A DNA stretch of 23,726 bases from a virus. Below the pieces are notes generated by a model that did not search any database, was not told the origin of the DNA, and saw nothing but the letters and a program-made list of their open reading frames with translations. The stretch covers positions 1 through 23,726 of the IMG/VR virus record IMGVR_UViG_3300042534_000434; one strand, 5' to 3'. Each line of letters opens with the position of its first letter. Positions within the stretch are counted from its first letter, which is position 1. Shown here one piece after another: positions 8,942 through 20,185 of the stretch. A program made the position numbers and the translations under genes.

Positions 8942-11900
8942 ATGCCCTACCAATTCAAAACCGACCCCAAAACCGGAGCACGGATTGCCGTCCCTACGGC
9001 TGACCCCAAGTCTTTTGCGCCAATTCCCAAGCCAGAACAAAGGGCTGGCAAGTTTGACGCATCAACAGTGGTCACCAAGGCCGCCCGAGATCTAACGCAG
9101 GAGTTGGGCGGCAACCTGTTGGCCGACGAGCTTTCCAAGTTTCGGCAATTTGGTGGCGTGCCTCGCAAGCCCGGCGCCCCTGATGCGCCCTTCCTTGGCT
9201 TCCTGCCACCGCTGCCCCAGGTAGAGGCCAGCACTTGGGAATCCAATACCGCAAACTTTGTCCAAGGTGCCTTCGCTTGGGTACTGGCCAGCCGCGGCCT
9301 GCGTGCTGCTGGTCGCGCCGCTGCTGTTCGGGTGCCGGGCGCCGCTGCTGTGGGCGCTGCCGCTCGCCCCGTTGTGCAACCGCTGCGTGGCCTAGCGGCC
9401 CGTGCAACCCAGGCCCCTGGGCTCAAGGGCGTTGCTGGCCGGGCGGCAGTGCAGACCATCAAGGAAGCACCTGCCAGCGCACTGGTCGGTTACGGCGCGT
9501 TCAAGCCAGAGGAGCAGCGTGTCTCCGACCACGTCCTGCGATGGGTCGAGGAGCAGGCCGGCACCCCGCTGTACGACCCACTGGTCGGCTTGATCCGTTC
9601 CAAGCCCGGCGACACCGCTTCGGATGCCCGCTGGAAGAACGCAGTCGAGAGCCTGCTGATCTTTGACCCTGCTGCCAATGCAGTGGTCGAAGGGATCGGC
9701 TTGGCCGCCAAGGCTGTGGTCAACCGGTTTTTCGCCAACCAGGCTGCCACTCCTACCCCTGCGGCTAAGCAGGTTGTTGATGCGTCGGCCCGGGAAGTCA
9801 AGCCGCCTGTCGCTCCAACACCTGAGGCTGCTGCTGCCCCTGCGCGACCAGCCAAACCGGCGCAACCGCCATCCACGGCGCCTGACGACATCACGGTTGA
9901 AACCTTTGGCAAAGCTCGGTATCCCGATCAGCCATTGCCGCAGACGGATCCTTCTGTCGACCCATGGGCCGAGGTCGCCAAAGCTGATGCGGAAGCGCAG
10001 CGGGCTTTCGACTTCCTGGAAACAGCAACTGCCCGGGCTGCCAACACTGTGCCCGACGTGATGGGTGCAGTGCGGCCTGAAGCCCGTGCTGTCGAGCGCC
10101 CTGCATATTCCCAAGTGCGGGAAACTCAGGTGACTGAAATCGCCACTGACCCCCAGCGGTTCCAGTTCAAAGCTGCCGGCATCGGCAAGACCGGTGTCAC
10201 CGGTTCCCTGAAGGAGGCGGCTGAGTATGACCCGCTGTTCGGCAAGATCATCAGCGTCTGGCGTGACCCGAACAACGGTCAGCTGTACGTCGTCAACGGT
10301 CACAACCGCCTGGACCTGGCACGTCGTTCTGGCCGGGAAAGCATCCTGACCTGGGAGATCGAGGCCCCTACGGCTGAGCAGGCCCGGGCCATTGGTGCCA
10401 TGGAAAACATGGCCGAAGGGCAAGGCACCCCATGGGATGCAGCCAAGATCATGCGCGATATGGGCATGGGCCTTGAGGAGCTGCGTCAACGGAACATCAA
10501 CATCCGTGGCCCCATCGCTGAGCGGGCCATTCCGCTGAGCCGCCTGCCACAGGAGATCTTCGACCGCGGTGTTACCGGCAAGCTGGACCTGGCCAAGGCT
10601 GTGGCCCTGGGCAGCGAAGCCTTGGATGACGCGGTCATCCGCGACGTCGCTGCTGCTGCTGGCAAGGGCCGGTGGTCAGCAGAGAAGATTCTGCAGGCCA
10701 TGCAGGAGGCCAAGTTTGCCCAGACCCAGACGACCGGTGGCGGCACCATCCCCGGCATGGAGGACTGGGCCACCAAGACCAGCGACTTCAGCGTGCGTGC
10801 TGATGTGCGTGCTGAGGCCTACCGCTCACTGCGGGAGGAGATGATCGCCCTGACCTCGGCTGCACGGCTGGGCCGCAAGGACATCCTTGAGGCAGCCGGC
10901 AATGTGATCGACGTCGCTGGCAGCCAGGCTGCACGGGACCAAGCGGCCCAAGCCGCTGCTGTGTTCAACCGGGTGACCGGGTACACGGGCCCAGTGCGTG
11001 ACCTGTTGAATGAACTGGTCGAGCAGGTGAAGGGTGGCCGCACCACCAAGAAGGTGGTGGCCGACAACCTGGACCGCCTGCGTCAAGCCATCGAGGACGA
11101 GCTGCAAGGGCCGCGGCTGCCACTGGAGGAGCCCCCTGCTGCAGCTGTCGAGCCAGAGATGGCTATGGAGCCAGAGGCCGCTGCAGAGCCGGAAGTGCCT
11201 GAGGTGACGCCGCAACAGCGCGACGAGACCAAGGCCTTGTTGGATCGGGCATTGGCCACTTTGCCATTGGAAAAGCGGCCAGCAGTGCAGGCCGAGCTTG
11301 AGCGCAGGGCGATGGCTCCGACCGAACCACGCATTGCAGTTCAGCCCATGGGCAATGCGGCAGCGGCTGCGATTGAACCACCACAAGGCTTTGGCGGCCG
11401 TGGCCCCCTGGCCAGCACAGAGGAGTTCGTGCCTGACCCCGGCATGAAACCCTTGGATCCTGAGTTTGTTCAGGCCTTCACCAAGGAGCTGACCGAAGAC
11501 ATCCGACGTGTCGCTGGCAATGACGTCGTCATCCGCTTCCAGCAAGCCTTTGAGATGCGGCAACGACCCAAGGAGTGGGGTGGCACTGGCAGCCCCGGGG
11601 ACATTTCCTACGTGAATGGGTCCTACGACCCCATCAAGGATCTGGTTCGGCTCAATGGCATCGGCACCCGAGGTGTTGCCCGCCAGCGGGGAACCGCCTT
11701 CCATGAAGCCTTCCACCGCGTTCAGTACAACTTCCTCACCGAGAAAGAGCTGAAGGCCCTTAACAGCTTTTGGTCACAGCTCAAGCTGTCCATCGCGGCA
11801 AGCCCTGAAATGGAAGCTGCACGCAAGCGTGGCGGCTCAGTCGTTCTGATTGAGCAGCAGGCCATCGCGTTTCAAAAGTTTGCCTACGCCCGCAAGGAAG

Positions 11901-15619: not shown

Positions 15620-17116
15620 ATGCCCTTTTCCTACGCCGTCTACACCGGGAATGGGTCGACGACCCAGTTCAACGTTCCGTTCCCGTACATCCGCCGGGAG
15701 CATGTCGTTGCTTCCTTGGACTACGTCAGCCAGGTGTTCACCTGGGTCAACAACACCACCGTCGAAATCACACCAGCTCCTGCCGCTGGTGTGCGGGTAG
15801 AGGTCAGGCGGGTAACGCCCATCAATGCACCGTTGGTGGACTTTGTCGATGGCTCCACCTTGGTCGCTGCTGACCTGGACACCAATGCCCTGCAGCAGAC
15901 CTACGTCAACCAAGAGCAGGACGACGACTTCGCAGACACCATCTCCATCAACTCTCAAGGGTTGCTGGATGCAGGCGGCAAGCGGTTGACCAACCTTGGC
16001 AATCCAACATCCGCTCAGGATGCAGCCACCAAGACCTACGTCGACACAGCCGACAACCTGCGGCTGAAGCGCGACGGCACCCAGGCAATGACCGGCGCAT
16101 TGCCGATGGGTGGCTTCAAGGTCACCGGGCTGGGCACTCCATCCAGCAGCGACGATGCGTCGACCAAGGGGTACGTCGACAGCGCGGTCGGCCTGGCCGG
16201 TGGCTTTGCCGCTGCTGCGTCAGCCAGTGCGTCTGCTGCTGCTGTCAGCGAGTCCAATGCAGCTGCGTCGGAAAGCGCTGCAGGGGTTAGCGAGTCCAAT
16301 GCTGCTGCATCTGAGAGCGCTGCTGCTGGTAGCGCCAGTGCTGCGGCCAGCTCTGCGTCGACCGCTACGACCCAGGCCGGCAACGCCAGCTCGTCAGCCA
16401 GTGCTGCATCAGCCAGTGCCACTGCTGCATCCAACAGCGCATCAAACGCTGCCGCCAGTGCTGCCGCTGCCTTGGCAGCCCTGGACAATTTTGATGACAG
16501 GTACCTGGGCCCTAAGAACAGTGACCCAACGGTCGACAACGACGGCGACCCGCTCGTCGCTGGGGCGCTGTACTGGAACACCCCGCTGGGGGTGATGAAG
16601 GTTTACACCGGCACAGTGTGGGTGGTGGCCTATGTGCCTGGCGATGCCATCAACATCAACTTCGCGCCGTACAGCACGATTGCGTCTAACAACGTGCAGG
16701 GCGCGATTCAAGAGCTGACGGATGAAAAGCTGAACCTGACGGGTGGGGCGCTGACTGGCGACCTGGCCCTGAACGCTCAGTCGGACCTGCGCTTTGCAGA
16801 TGCAGACAGCAGCCACTCGGTCGGCTTCCAAGCCCCCTCAACAGTTGCAGCCAATGTGACCTGGACGCTTCCTGCCGCTGATGCGTCGGTGTCGGGGTAT
16901 GCGTTGAAGTCTGACGGGGCAGGCAACCTCAGCTGGGGCCTAGCAGGAGGAGCGTCGGGGGGTGGCGCTAATCAGGTTTTCTATGAGAATGACCAGGTCG
17001 TGACCACCAGTTACACGCTCACCACCAGCAAGAACGCCATGAGCGCGGGGCCCATCACTATCAACTCCGGCGTCACGGTCACCATCCCTGCCGGCCAATT
17101 CTGGAGCATCGTCTGA
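15620..17116 (+). CDS. tail fibre protein with T7 gp17-like virion-binding domain
   Basis: A 498-residue fibre. Residues 1 to about 150 match the T7 gp17 tail-attachment domain: NVPFPYIRREHVV, then RRVTPINAPLVDFVDGS (T7: RRVTSTTDRLVDFTDGS). Two related modules follow (LTNLGNPTSAQDAATKTYVD and VTGLGTPSSSDDASTKGYVD), a common fibre repeat. Residues about 195-287 form an Ala/Ser-only stalk, probably a trimeric coiled or helical rod. The remainder (LGVMKVYTGTVWVVAY and a Gly-rich C-terminus ending PAGQFWSIV) resembles distal cyanophage fibre domains. It lacks a T7-like receptor tip, so the following fibre genes probably supply it. The stop is followed by TC and the next ATG. Confidence 0.92.
   Translation: MPFSYAVYTGNGSTTQFNVPFPYIRREHVVASLDYVSQVFTWVNNTTVEITPAPAAGVRVEVRRVTPINAPLVDFVDGSTLVAADLDTNALQQTYVNQEQDDDFADTISINSQGLLDAGGKRLTNLGNPTSAQDAATKTYVDTADNLRLKRDGTQAMTGALPMGGFKVTGLGTPSSSDDASTKGYVDSAVGLAGGFAAAASASASAAAVSESNAAASESAAGVSESNAAASESAAAGSASAAASSASTATTQAGNASSSASAASASATAASNSASNAAASAAAALAALDNFDDRYLGPKNSDPTVDNDGDPLVAGALYWNTPLGVMKVYTGTVWVVAYVPGDAININFAPYSTIASNNVQGAIQELTDEKLNLTGGALTGDLALNAQSDLRFADADSSHSVGFQAPSTVAANVTWTLPAADASVSGYALKSDGAGNLSWGLAGGASGGGANQVFYENDQVVTTSYTLTTSKNAMSAGPITINSGVTVTIPAGQFWSIV
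16244..16327 (+). repeat. 42-bp imperfect tandem repeat coding the fibre stalk
   Basis: Two adjacent 14-residue units starting VSESNAAASESAA (residues 209-222 and 223-236) are encoded by similar but not identical codons. The 14-residue length equals two heptads, fitting a coiled-coil rod. The same Ser/Ala pattern decays on either side, so the whole stalk probably grew by unequal duplication. Confidence 0.7.
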
Positions 17117-17118
17117 TC

Positions 17119-18315
17119 ATGACTCTTAATCTTTCTGGATCCAACGGTATCAGCGGCGTTGACGGCTCCGCTGGAACGCCTGCCCTTCAAGGCACCGACG
17201 CCAACACCGGCATCAGCTTCCCCGCAGCAGACACCGTTGCGATCAACACCGGCGGCAGCGAGCGCACCAGGGTGGACAGCTCCGGGCGTTTACTAGTTGG
17301 TACGTCTACGAGTAACGGCGGCCAGCTTGAAGTCAACCGAGCATCAAGCAACGGAGGCTTAGCGGGTGTTCTTAACTATCCACAATTTTCAATAACAAAC
17401 TCGTCTAATTACGGGTGGGCGGTTGGAATGCTTTTTAAGACTCCGCTTGTATCAGGCGGTCCCATTGTAAACAACGCCGCAATATGGTCAGACTGGACAT
17501 CAAGCGATAGTGCTTACCTAGGTTTTGCCACAAATAACGGGGGTACGGTTGCGGAGCGGATGAGGATTGATAGCACAGGATACATTCACGCATCAAATAG
17601 CGGTACATACAACGATTCTGGCTTAACTTTTACTTCGCATACCTATCAGAACGATACGTCTAACGCTGGTGTTCAAGCCTTAATAGCGTGGAACAATAGC
17701 TTTGCAAACATCGTTCACAGTATTAGCTGCTTGAGAGCGGCAAATAGTGCGTACAGTTTCCTACAAGGTACTTCTGGAAACGGTTCTACATCTTTTGCTG
17801 ATAATGAATTCAATCTTCGAGGCGATGGCAACGCTTTTGCAGACGGTACTTGGTCCGGTGGCGGCGCTGACTACGCCGAATACTTTGAGTGGTCTGACAG
17901 CAACCCTGATACAGAAGACCGCCGTGGCATCAGCGTTGTCTTGGATGACGACAAGATCCGCGAAGCCGTTGCTGGCGAAGACCCCATCGGCGTGATCTCT
18001 GGCAACCCCAGCGTCGTTGGTGATGCTGCTTGGAACAAGTGGAGCGGCAAATATCTGCGCGATGAGTTTGGCACTTACATCCAAGAGGACTACGAAGTCG
18101 AGGACGAAGACGGCAACACTGTTGTCCAGCAGCGCCGAAAACTCAACCCCGCTTACGACCCTGACGTGGAGTACATCTCCCGCGAACAACGCCCCGAGTG
18201 GGATTGCGTTGGCCTGATGGGCAAGCTCCGCATACGCAAGGGTCAGGCCACCGGCTCTCGCTGGATCAAGATGCGTGACATCAGCGACTCTGTTGAAGAG
18301 TGGTTGGTGCGCTGA
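17119..18315 (+). CDS. tail fibre / receptor-binding protein with C-terminal peptidase G2-like chaperone domain
   Basis: 398 residues. The N-terminus (LSGSNGISGVDGSAG, then RVDSSGRLLVG) is a common fibre adaptor seen in phage structural proteins. Residues about 60-240 are Asn/Ser/Gly-rich beta-structure encoded by a clearly AT-richer stretch (about 17290-17830). From A250 the ADYAEYFEW signature opens a domain resembling the intramolecular chaperone / autoproteolytic peptidase G2 family, which helps fibres trimerise and then cleaves itself off. The middle part is therefore probably the host-recognition tip, and the last 150 or so residues a removable chaperone. I cannot identify the cleavage residue from sequence alone. 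Confidence 0.82.
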   Translation: MTLNLSGSNGISGVDGSAGTPALQGTDANTGISFPAADTVAINTGGSERTRVDSSGRLLVGTSTSNGGQLEVNRASSNGGLAGVLNYPQFSITNSSNYGWAVGMLFKTPLVSGGPIVNNAAIWSDWTSSDSAYLGFATNNGGTVAERMRIDSTGYIHASNSGTYNDSGLTFTSHTYQNDTSNAGVQALIAWNNSFANIVHSISCLRAANSAYSFLQGTSGNGSTSFADNEFNLRGDGNAFADGTWSGGGADYAEYFEWSDSNPDTEDRRGISVVLDDDKIREAVAGEDPIGVISGNPSVVGDAAWNKWSGKYLRDEFGTYIQEDYEVEDEDGNTVVQQRRKLNPAYDPDVEYISREQRPEWDCVGLMGKLRIRKGQATGSRWIKMRDISDSVEEWLVR

Positions 18316-18317
18316 TT

Positions 18318-18353
18318 AGCCCCCTCCCCCTAACAACCCCCATGACTTACAAC
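18318..18353 (+). repeat. C-rich leader repeat, copy A
   Basis: Spans the pyrimidine-rich spacer and the first four codons of the 47-residue membrane protein. It aligns with 18486-18520 at about 28 of 35 positions with one gap; six of the seven differences are transitions. This suggests duplication of a gene start. Confidence 0.55.
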
Positions 18354-18485
18354 CCCTTCTTCCGCCGAATGTCAGCAGGCAAGCTGCCACCGTGGGATTG
18401 GAGCGACACCCTAGTGGCTAGCACTGTTGCCTTCGTTATTTTGATCGGAATGGGCGCACTTCTTGTAGTCTTTCTAGCCGGTTGA
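18342..18485 (+). CDS. 47-residue single-pass membrane protein, possible holin
   Basis: A short protein with a positively charged N-terminus (NPFFRRMSAGK), a PPWDWSD turn, and one strong membrane segment (LVASTVAFVILIGMGALLVV) running almost to the C-terminus. ATG at 18342 is preferred: the longer GTG start at 18300 lies inside the preceding fibre gene and adds a Pro-rich tail translated from the spacer. In T7 the one-pass holin 17.5 also follows the fibre gene, so a lysis role is a reasonable guess, but nothing else supports it. The leader before its ATG is duplicated before the next fibre gene. Confidence 0.62.
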   Translation: MTYNPFFRRMSAGKLPPWDWSDTLVASTVAFVILIGMGALLVVFLAG

Positions 18486-18520
18486 AGTCCCCTTCTCTAA
18501 TGACTCCCATGACTAACAAC
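18486..18520 (+). repeat. C-rich leader repeat, copy B
   Basis: Second copy of the leader at 18318-18353, including the ATGACTxACAAC gene start. Here it opens only a 13-codon reading frame that ends on the next fibre gene start. Confidence 0.55.
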
Positions 18521-18550
18521 TACAATCAAACCAAGGAGGTGACACCATGA
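18509..18550 (+). CDS. 13-codon mini-ORF overlapping the next start, probable relic or coupling leader
   Basis: Reads MTNNYNQTKEVTP and stops with TGA inside ATGA at 18547-18550. Its start resembles that of the 47-residue membrane protein and its last residues (KEVTP) resemble the end of the 96-residue protein at 19083 (EEVTS). It looks like a small gene deleted down to its two ends. An in-frame ATG at 18500 would make it 16 residues. Whether it is translated is unknown; if so, it would couple translation into the fibre gene. Confidence 0.4.
   Translation: MTNNYNQTKEVTP
18533..18542 (+). promoter_or_regulatory. strong Shine-Dalgarno site for the 179-residue fibre gene
   Basis: AAGGAGGTGA is a full match to the anti-Shine-Dalgarno sequence, 4 bases before ATG at 18547. 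Most structural genes in the window lack such a site. Confidence 0.8.
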
Positions 18551-19086
18551 GCGCCATCAGGCTTACGGGCTCCACGTCCGGCTACGCAGAGATCACACCC
18601 AGCGCCATTGCGGGGGATGTGCAACTGGTGCTTCCGTCAACGGCTGGCACGCTTGACCGCCTCAACCGGGCGGGGAATGTGTTGCAGGTGGTGAATGCGA
18701 CGTACTCGACTTCGACCACAAGAGCCAGCTCTGCCTATGCTGACACTAATTTAACTGCATCAATTACCCCCGCGTCTGCCACAAACAAAATCCTGGTAAT
18801 TGTCCACCATAACGGATGTGGCAAAAACACAAGCGATACACAGCTTCAGTTGCGTTTGCTAAGAGACTCAACGGTAATTGCCCAAATAGAAGATACTGCT
18901 GGGTATGACGGATCAAGCGGATCAAACTACATTGGCACATGTTCTATTTCTTATCTTGATTCCCCTTCTTCTACGTCAGCTATTACCTATAAAACGCAAT
19001 ATGCAAGCGCAGCAAATACATCTCAGGTTCAGTTGCAAGCTAATAGCACTGTCTCAACCATCACCCTCATGGAGGTAGCAGCATGA
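18547..19086 (+). CDS. tail fibre-like protein, cyanophage type
   Basis: 179 residues. The N-terminal LTGSTSGYAEITPSAIAG and LPSTAGTLDRLNRAGNVLQV form a short adaptor I associate with cyanophage fibre proteins. Residues from about 60 onward are beta-rich (alternating Thr, Ser, Val, Ile) and are encoded by AT-richer DNA (about 18720-19080; 24 of 60 G+C in 18781-18840). Probably a receptor-binding or fibre-decorating domain. The start is fixed by the perfect Shine-Dalgarno site at 18533-18542. The gene ends in MEVAA, whose codons include GGAGGT, the ribosome site for the next gene, and the two genes overlap by four bases. Confidence 0.72.
   Translation: MSAIRLTGSTSGYAEITPSAIAGDVQLVLPSTAGTLDRLNRAGNVLQVVNATYSTSTTRASSAYADTNLTASITPASATNKILVIVHHNGCGKNTSDTQLQLRLLRDSTVIAQIEDTAGYDGSSGSNYIGTCSISYLDSPSSTSAITYKTQYASAANTSQVQLQANSTVSTITLMEVAA
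19071..19076 (+). promoter_or_regulatory. Shine-Dalgarno site inside the end of the upstream fibre gene
   Basis: GGAGGT lies 6 bases before ATG at 19083 and is read as part of Met-Glu-Val in the upstream frame. It belongs to a set of three similar junctions. Confidence 0.65.
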
Positions 19087-19373
19087 TGTACTTCGCTTCT
19101 GCCATCTACCAGCTCTACCCAACCGTGGTCCGCACCGTTGGCGAGGATGCGTTCGACGCTGATGGCAACCCCGTAACTTACGACCGCGCAGCCGTTGAAG
19201 CTGAAGCGCAGCGTATGTCCGCCCAACAGGCCCGAGCTTCCGCCTACGCCAGTGAAGCCGACCCGCTGTTCTTCAAAGCGCAGCGCGGCGAGGCAACCAT
19301 CGAAGAGTGGCAGTCTACTGTGGCTGACATTCGTGCTCGCTTTCCGTACCCCACTGAGGAGGTGACATCATGA
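19083..19373 (+). CDS. 96-residue protein of the tail-fibre cassette, function unknown
   Basis: Acidic, helical protein. Visible landmarks are the N-terminal ASAIYQLYPTVVRTVGEDAF, a DADGNPVTYD turn, an Ala/Glu/Gln-rich helix, and the C-terminal DPLFFKAQRGEATIEEW segment. That last segment resembles small proteins found beside fibre genes in cyanophages, so a fibre-assembly or chaperone role is possible but not shown. An ATGATG start overlaps the upstream stop. The gene ends in EEVTS and overlaps the next gene by four bases. Codon use is GC-rich, unlike the middles of its fibre neighbours. Confidence 0.68.
   Translation: MMYFASAIYQLYPTVVRTVGEDAFDADGNPVTYDRAAVEAEAQRMSAQQARASAYASEADPLFFKAQRGEATIEEWQSTVADIRARFPYPTEEVTS
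19356..19365 (+). promoter_or_regulatory. strong Shine-Dalgarno site for the 129-residue fibre gene
   Basis: GAGGAGGTGA, 4 bases before ATG at 19370 and inside the coding end of the 96-residue gene. The whole junction GGAGGTGACAyCATGAG is nearly identical to the one at 18535-18551. Confidence 0.8.
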
Positions 19374-19759
19374 GTACACTAGTCGCGTCTAATCTCAAGA
19401 ACGCATCAGCCACCAACCCCAACATCGTCCTCAATACTGATGGCACGATCGGCGGCGATTGCCTCACGCAAACCTGCCGCGCCTGGGTCAACTTTAACGG
19501 CACCGGCACCGTGGCAATCCGCGCTAGCTACAACGTTAGCAGCATTACAGATAACGATGTGGGCGACTATACGGTAAACTTTGCAACGGCGCTTGCGGAT
19601 GCGAATTATTCAGTATGTGGGATGAAAAATAATCAAAGTAGCAATATCGGCTCCCATCTAAAGATTAACACTCTTTTGTCGGCAAGCGTAAGTGTTGTAA
19701 GTTTTGAAAACAATGCTTCAACAGACTGCCAAACCGTCTGCGTCGCCGTCTTCCGCTAA
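19370..19759 (+). CDS. short tail fibre protein / fibre tip domain
   Basis: 129 residues. Landmarks are NPNIVLNTDGTIGG, then AWVNFNGTGTVAIRASYNVS and ITDNDVGDYTVNFATAL, a pattern widespread in phage fibre tips. The C-terminal half is encoded by AT-richer DNA (20 of 60 G+C at 19621-19680) and ends STDCQTVCVAVFR, a beta strand expected to close the fold. Four cysteines (two early, two late) could stabilise it. The ATGA overlap and strong ribosome site tie its translation to the upstream gene. It probably contributes to receptor binding together with the other fibre proteins. Confidence 0.75.
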   Translation: MSTLVASNLKNASATNPNIVLNTDGTIGGDCLTQTCRAWVNFNGTGTVAIRASYNVSSITDNDVGDYTVNFATALADANYSVCGMKNNQSSNIGSHLKINTLLSASVSVVSFENNASTDCQTVCVAVFR

Positions 19760-19768
19760 GGCCCTACC

Positions 19769-20185
19769 ATGAAAATCATCTACACCAACAACGAAGGCGG
19801 CATCAGCGTCATCCATCCCACGGGTGAACTGAGCATCGAAGAAGTCGCCGCCAAGGATGTGCCCGAAGGCGTGGCCTACGAGATCGTGGAAGACGACGCC
19901 ATCCCCAGTGATCGCACTTTCCGTGGCGCGTGGGTGATGGGCGACTGCTGCGTGGAGCACGACCTCGACAAGTGCAAGGCCATCGGCCACGACAAGCGCC
20001 GCGCTGCCCGTGCTGAGGAGTTCGCCCCACTGGACGAGGTGATCGCCAAGCAAATCCCCGGCAACGACCCCGCCGAAGTGGAAGCCGAGCGCCAACTGGT
20101 CCGCGACAAGTACGTCGCAGTCCAAGACCAAATCGACGCTGCAGCCAGCCCTGACGAGATCAAGGCAGCTCTCGGGCTTGATTAG
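19769..20185 (+). CDS. 138-residue fibre-adjacent protein, possible assembly protein
   Basis: The N-terminal half (MKIIYTNNEGGISVIHPTG, then EIVEDDAIPSDRTFRGAW) resembles a small domain often encoded just after phage fibre genes and in some fibre-assembly proteins. The C-terminal half (residues about 70-138) is a charged helical region, Glu/Lys/Arg-rich, with RDKYVAVQDQIDAA near the end. It has no membrane segment or signal peptide. It lies 9 bases after the preceding fibre gene and lacks a clear Shine-Dalgarno site. Function is not established. Confidence 0.7.
   Translation: MKIIYTNNEGGISVIHPTGELSIEEVAAKDVPEGVAYEIVEDDAIPSDRTFRGAWVMGDCCVEHDLDKCKAIGHDKRRAARAEEFAPLDEVIAKQIPGNDPAEVEAERQLVRDKYVAVQDQIDAAASPDEIKAALGLD

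Follow-up and report, generated by a model that had tools for sequence, protein, structure and literature searches.

The window, that is, the whole stretch of DNA analyzed in this study (23,726 nucleotides), is a 23.7-kb virus record and probably a fragment. The nearest relatives of its primase/helicase are those of Prochlorococcus podoviruses (59%), and therefore, judging by sequence similarity, a cyanobacterial host is likely. The fibre region, all of it on the plus strand, starts with a gene for a T7-type tail fibre protein (15620..17116; N-terminal domain PF03906, Pfam E 2e-43) and the fibre-like gene P with a Peptidase_G2 autoproteolytic domain (17119..18315; PF11962, Pfam E 4.7e-43), which are followed by genes A, B, C, and D. 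A (18547..19086) encodes a 179-residue fibre protein (phrog_6942, PHROG E 3.2e-8) with relatives in cyanophages, pelagiphages, and methylophages, and C (19370..19759) encodes a 129-residue fibre protein (phrog_11355, PHROG E 2.8e-16). The 96-residue product of B (19083..19373) is conserved in the alignment of its relatives up to a YPYP motif, after which the tail is variable. No named phage matches it at 1e-5; its N-terminal half aligns with a protein of Synechococcus phage RB11-B that the depositors annotated as 'tail assembly chaperone protein' and that is encoded at the same place of the cassette. D (19769..20185) encodes a 138-residue protein with the C-terminus IKAALGLD. Five proteins have no match in NCBIfam, and a nucleotide search of the whole cassette against named phages yields weak partial matches only.

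Between P and A are located a 47-codon open reading frame with a hydrophobic stretch (18342..18485), which is the last longer frame upstream of the leader and lacks a clear relative in the loci fetched, and a 65-base leader (18486..18550). The leader contains a 16-codon mini-ORF, MTPMTNNYNQTKEVTP (18500..18550), whose stop overlaps the start of A; similar mini-ORFs are present in loci L121, L122, L129, and L143. The leader's opening 35 bases (18486-18520, AGTCCCCTTCTCTAATGACTCCC...) occur in nine other distinct contexts with 0-8 mismatches, and a 22-base part is exact in five contigs. Since the leader is shared and the sequence upstream of it differs between contexts (in six of the nine the leader comes after coiled-coil ends that look similar by eye), the common 5' homology edge in the window is 18486. 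Twelve of 233 alignments begin at this edge, 49 bases before the first of the junctions considered below, and only three begin at 18531-18535. In L155, the start of the leader is followed by unrelated sequence without a Shine-Dalgarno (SD) site or an A gene.

The original prediction placed a repeated gene-junction module at 18535, 19071, and 19358, with upstream frames ending in KEVTP, MEVAA, and EEVTS and a TGA stop in a four-base overlap with the ATG after it; a direct reading of the window agrees with the prediction on all these points. Junction 1 is GGAGGTGACACCATGA (18535..18550) and forms the end of the leader; junction 2 is GGAGGTAGCAGCATGA (19071..19086) and codes for the conserved fibre C-terminus MEVAA; junction 3 is GGAGGTGACATCATGA (19358..19373). 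In each case the ATG opens the next frame, and the SD site is within the final codons of the upstream frame, at a working distance. Both the sequence and the codon choice back the proposal that one sequence serves as protein end, ribosome site, and start, although this triple use is the ordinary design of genes with an ATGA overlap. The frame closing at junction 1 is not a fibre gene but the mini-ORF of the leader. The idea of one repeated string applies to junctions 1 and 3, whereas junction 2 departs from the proposed string GGAGGTGACAYCATGA at three of 16 positions. There are two exact matches to GGAGGTNACANCATGA in the window and none to the reversed pattern, which is more than expected by chance; with up to three mismatches there are three matches, which is not unusual (the shuffle mean is 2.24, and 39 of 100 shuffles reach three). 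A single element copied to all three junctions of the window was considered and rejected, the copy at 19071 being a conserved protein end. GGAGG is present at all three junctions, and the majority of the remaining gene starts in the window lack it; it is also found, slightly further upstream, at the gene start at 8942.

In Cyanobacteria, SD sites are seldom used by leading genes and serve for reinitiation at gene overlaps (Huber et al. 2019, PMC6728339). The termination-reinitiation overlaps described there resemble those of the window in having the SD site in the upstream 3' end, a four-base overlap, and co-directed genes, and the sparsity of SD sites in the window except at overlaps fits the cyanobacterial pattern as reported there. 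The window differs from the overlaps described in that work in being a phage fibre cassette, in which one string is repeated between unrelated genes. We infer that the genes are translationally coupled in the cell: the SD site in the last four codons, together with the ATGA overlap, would start the next gene of the tail-fibre operon at each junction.

Junctions 1 and 3 are located beyond the conserved portion of the protein encoded upstream and would serve the gene that follows as its initiation region. For instance, beyond YPYP the relatives of B continue with EEVTS, EVES, GV, E, EAE, EVN, EADQ, DQP, or EVTP. Among the relatives of D, whose next-gene classes were set by an A-type N-terminus pattern, SD with an ATGA or GTGA overlap is found in 22 of 26 cases when the next gene is of A type, mostly with an ALE(V/A)xx end and ATGA, and in one of 36 when it is not; this sole case is L155, an A relative by tblastn that the pattern missed. 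The same tendency is seen in 121 distinct SD+ATGA junctions, 83 of them non-MEVAA, from loci found by protein similarity and hence not selected for the motif. In the 53 non-MEVAA pairs that differ upstream but have their downstream gene in common, 0.82 of the SD bases and 0.66 of the spacer bases are shared, compared with 0.52 and 0.37 for unrelated pairs (2336) and 0.67 and 0.42 for pairs with the same upstream and different downstream genes (22). The best reading of these data is that the junction is a translational-coupling signal that mostly moves with the downstream gene. Such an initiation region would write an EVTP or EVTS tail onto any upstream frame.

Junction 2 would, on the other hand, belong to the upstream gene, with the MEVAA codons held in SD form. 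A-type fibres of very different phages end in MEVAA or MEIAA, and in S-B05, RB11-B, P-SSP7, and MEP402 the glutamate codon is inside a GGAGGT site just upstream of the next start, with ATAATG partly replacing ATGA in P-SSP7 and MEP402. Of 49 distinct A-type C-termini from non-redundant loci, 48 use GAG for this glutamate, where per-locus usage predicts 23.3 (the probability of this excess, 5e-16, assumes independent loci, which these are not), and even among loci with rare GAG this codon is used in 13 of 14. These comparisons indicate that the A-type fibre end is kept both as a protein and as a ribosome site. In P-SSP7 the gene following a MEVAA-type end is an A-type or C-type fibre gene and not B, and thus the downstream partner changes across phages; among the closest relatives no swap was found at junction 2.

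In our opinion, the junctions are probably coupling sites of two kinds, 1 and 3 owned by the downstream gene and 2 by the upstream gene, in a cassette that has been reshuffled near gene ends. Such reshuffling would place the same junction between many gene pairs. A scan for the longer string GGAGGTGACMYCATGAGC gave 108 stretches, of which 107 loci with 114 sites were examined (two sites near contig ends were left out of the upstream-cluster analysis), and 38 of 83 distinct contexts are in a window-like fibre cassette. L343 and L369 were counted outside the cassette, yet by eye they have a C-type downstream N-terminus. In related cassettes, the string stands after about ten unrelated upstream families and is followed by either of two types of fibre gene or by a gene for an HNH endonuclease; the upstream clusters preceding fibre-type genes include B, D, the mini-ORF, and the coiled-coil end, and GCCGCCCTGGAGGTGACCCCATGAGCA stands after several unrelated proteins. 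Thus the same short sequence occurs between different gene pairs, as in boundary sequences, but with loci selected by the motif the set shows the spread of the string and not a rate. An (A)ALEVTP junction was also observed in L308 near 3882 (reverse strand), before a short gene that is not fibre-like and starts with MSREAERQLNELHEVL.

Gene-content change at the motif itself is seen at junction 3 and at the HNH gene. The window and L298 (the contig of L121) are homologous from 18482 to 19377, with B 93-100% identical from 19250 to 19369. Across junction 3 the identity falls from 93% to 57, 43, and 33%, collapsing at the start codon at 19370, and the genes downstream have only a diverged N-terminus in common. 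L357 (851-1396) and L157 (4147-4692) contain an HNH_3 gene (Pfam E 2.5e-16 and 3.3e-16, respectively) that starts with ATGAGCAC, and its relatives are found in L262 (3339-3884) and L249 (5435-5983). In the fibre cassette, these genes follow four different upstream ends, and all four copies end in APQEV(S/I) with their own GGAGGTGA junction, before a C-type gene. Both flanks of the L357 gene occur without it in L359 and L398, and the flanks of the L157 gene occur without it in L133, L136, L149, and L353. This is the cleanest gain or loss of a gene at the junction. In L251, apparently only the last HNH codons are left (SFYAPQEVIR).

Breakpoints are seen at or just beside the junction, either upstream of GGAGG or within ATGAGCAC, and it had been suggested that the string is a short homology arm. 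According to this explanation, enzymes cross over within 16-28 identical bases, and the junction drives the gain, loss, and exchange of fibre genes. The switch between the window and L298 at junction 3, the sharing of the string by about ten upstream families, and the insertion of the HNH gene between two GGAGGTGA copies agree with it, as do pairs with the same upstream and different downstream genes: 12 of 14 switch at +5 to +11 after ATG in a set that includes motif-selected loci, and four of the only five high-identity pairs switch at +7 or +11 in the motif-unselected set. Homology edges were also mapped across 128 non-redundant loci, the window among them. Abrupt left edges are enriched at -24 to -9 of SD+ATGA starts (25 of 90 starts versus 5.7 in the null), and right edges are not, except weakly at +7 to +21 (7 versus 3.9). 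At starts without an SD site, right edges are strongly enriched at -24 to +6 (92 versus 27.8). Since breakpoints are enriched at places free of the motif, the motif is not needed. The edge related to junction 1 is that of the leader, and several more breakpoints are inside B and C. Thus gene content changes at the string in part of the cases and elsewhere in others, the enrichment is not motif-specific, and the motif is one of several boundaries.

Two DNA blocks inside genes have edges of this kind. The 3' half of B (19230..19369) is strongly conserved in the closest relatives, with left homology edges at 19217-19254. The core of C (19474..19612), found by homology alignments in dozens of loci with sharp intragenic edges, is shared more strongly than any junction motif. 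The C-to-D boundary (19736-19768, ..GTCGCCGTCTTCCGCTAA..ATG), which has no SD site, is a frequent left homology edge and another shared boundary string.

A peak of left breakpoints at -12 was considered as proof of exchange at the motif and rejected, as much of the set is motif-selected and the 18-base scan pre-selects identity from -12, so that the peak is partly built in. Of the 42 non-MEVAA pairs in the motif-unselected set that share their downstream gene, seven have the left breakpoint at -12 and 20 have it from +7 onward, beyond the start codon. As the loci are related, all such counts overstate independence. Moreover, selection against broken genes would give the same pattern, and crossover driven by microhomology and exchange near gene ends combined with selection look the same in these data. 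It is possible that short identity guides crossover, but we consider the junction unlikely to be the driver of fibre-gene gain and loss.

A related and slightly more doubtful explanation is that the junction is a fixed-frame joint, where genes that start with ATGAGCAC and end with GGAGGTGA and a stop, the HNH gene included, are slotted in or lost between junction copies. Such a joint would always leave an intact coupled overlap, as well as a shared EVTx tail on unrelated proteins.

The core of the string is not specific to fibre genes. A family-blind scan for the 15-base core GAGGTGACANCATGA found it in at least 120 loci, and at 96 of the 125 exact sites in the loci listed two frames meet that are each 30 codons or longer, compared with 13% (1238 of 9550) of all ATGA in the same DNA; the reversed core pattern is absent from the listed loci. 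The phages are mostly unrelated, and relatives of the tested fibre-region proteins are present in only three of the 120 loci listed, which rejects the core as a specific feature of cyanophage fibre cassettes. GGAGGTGA is complementary to the 3' end of 16S rRNA, and the junction string is an ordinary strong SD site fused to an ATGA stop-start overlap. Leaving out the selected site, the loci listed have 102 strong-SD ATGA junctions. GAG stands at -11 in 42 of them, more often than in any other phase, and EV is the most frequent residue pair (23 of 102). Thus E-V tails are a product of a well-placed SD site at an ATGA overlap. It is nevertheless improbable that convergence alone, with selection for a strong SD site at any ATGA junction and no history of exchange, has produced the string, as GAG at -11 is commoner in the fibre cassette (94 of 121), the non-SD spacer bases go with the downstream gene (0.66 versus 0.37), the pre-SD bases GCCGCCCT are common to several unrelated upstream proteins, and matching flanks occur both with and without the HNH gene.

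Several known systems have short sequences at module boundaries. PeSL of T4-type phages are reportedly, going by the titles of work by Arbiol in 2010 and Comeau in 2014, mobile regulatory cassettes with promoter-terminator motifs; to judge from these titles, they also are short regulatory sequences where modules are shuffled, whereas the signal considered here is translational and coding. It has been proposed that short conserved sequences mark the boundaries between phage modules, as described in PMC3029335. Like the sequences of that description, the junction is short and shared where gene content changes, but here the boundary is a ribosome site and a start codon, and homology-based exchange is only possible. 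The Start-Associated Sequences of Cluster K mycobacteriophages, for which a role in translation was suggested, also are short repeats before the starts of genes from different families (PMC3203893). By the account given there, they are 13 bases long, with conserved positions not involved in rRNA pairing, while the core of the junction is an SD site inside the upstream end; the consensus printed there, GGGATAGGAGCCC, is not matched by the window junction strings. The literature searches made in this study found no relevant paper on exchange at fibre junctions. Thus the coupling signal is already known, and the fibre cassette is a new instance of it, with the twist that the boundary itself is coding and translational.

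These observations have consequences for annotation, as EVTP and EVTS tails are signatures of the junction and should not be taken for protein homology. They also indicate that one fibre C-terminus, in phages far apart from each other, is constrained both as coding sequence and as ribosome site. Finally, if the junction is indeed a fixed-frame joint, fibre operons would have a built-in, frame-safe place for exchange, which would help to explain how the fibre sets of cyanophages change fast with co-expression intact.
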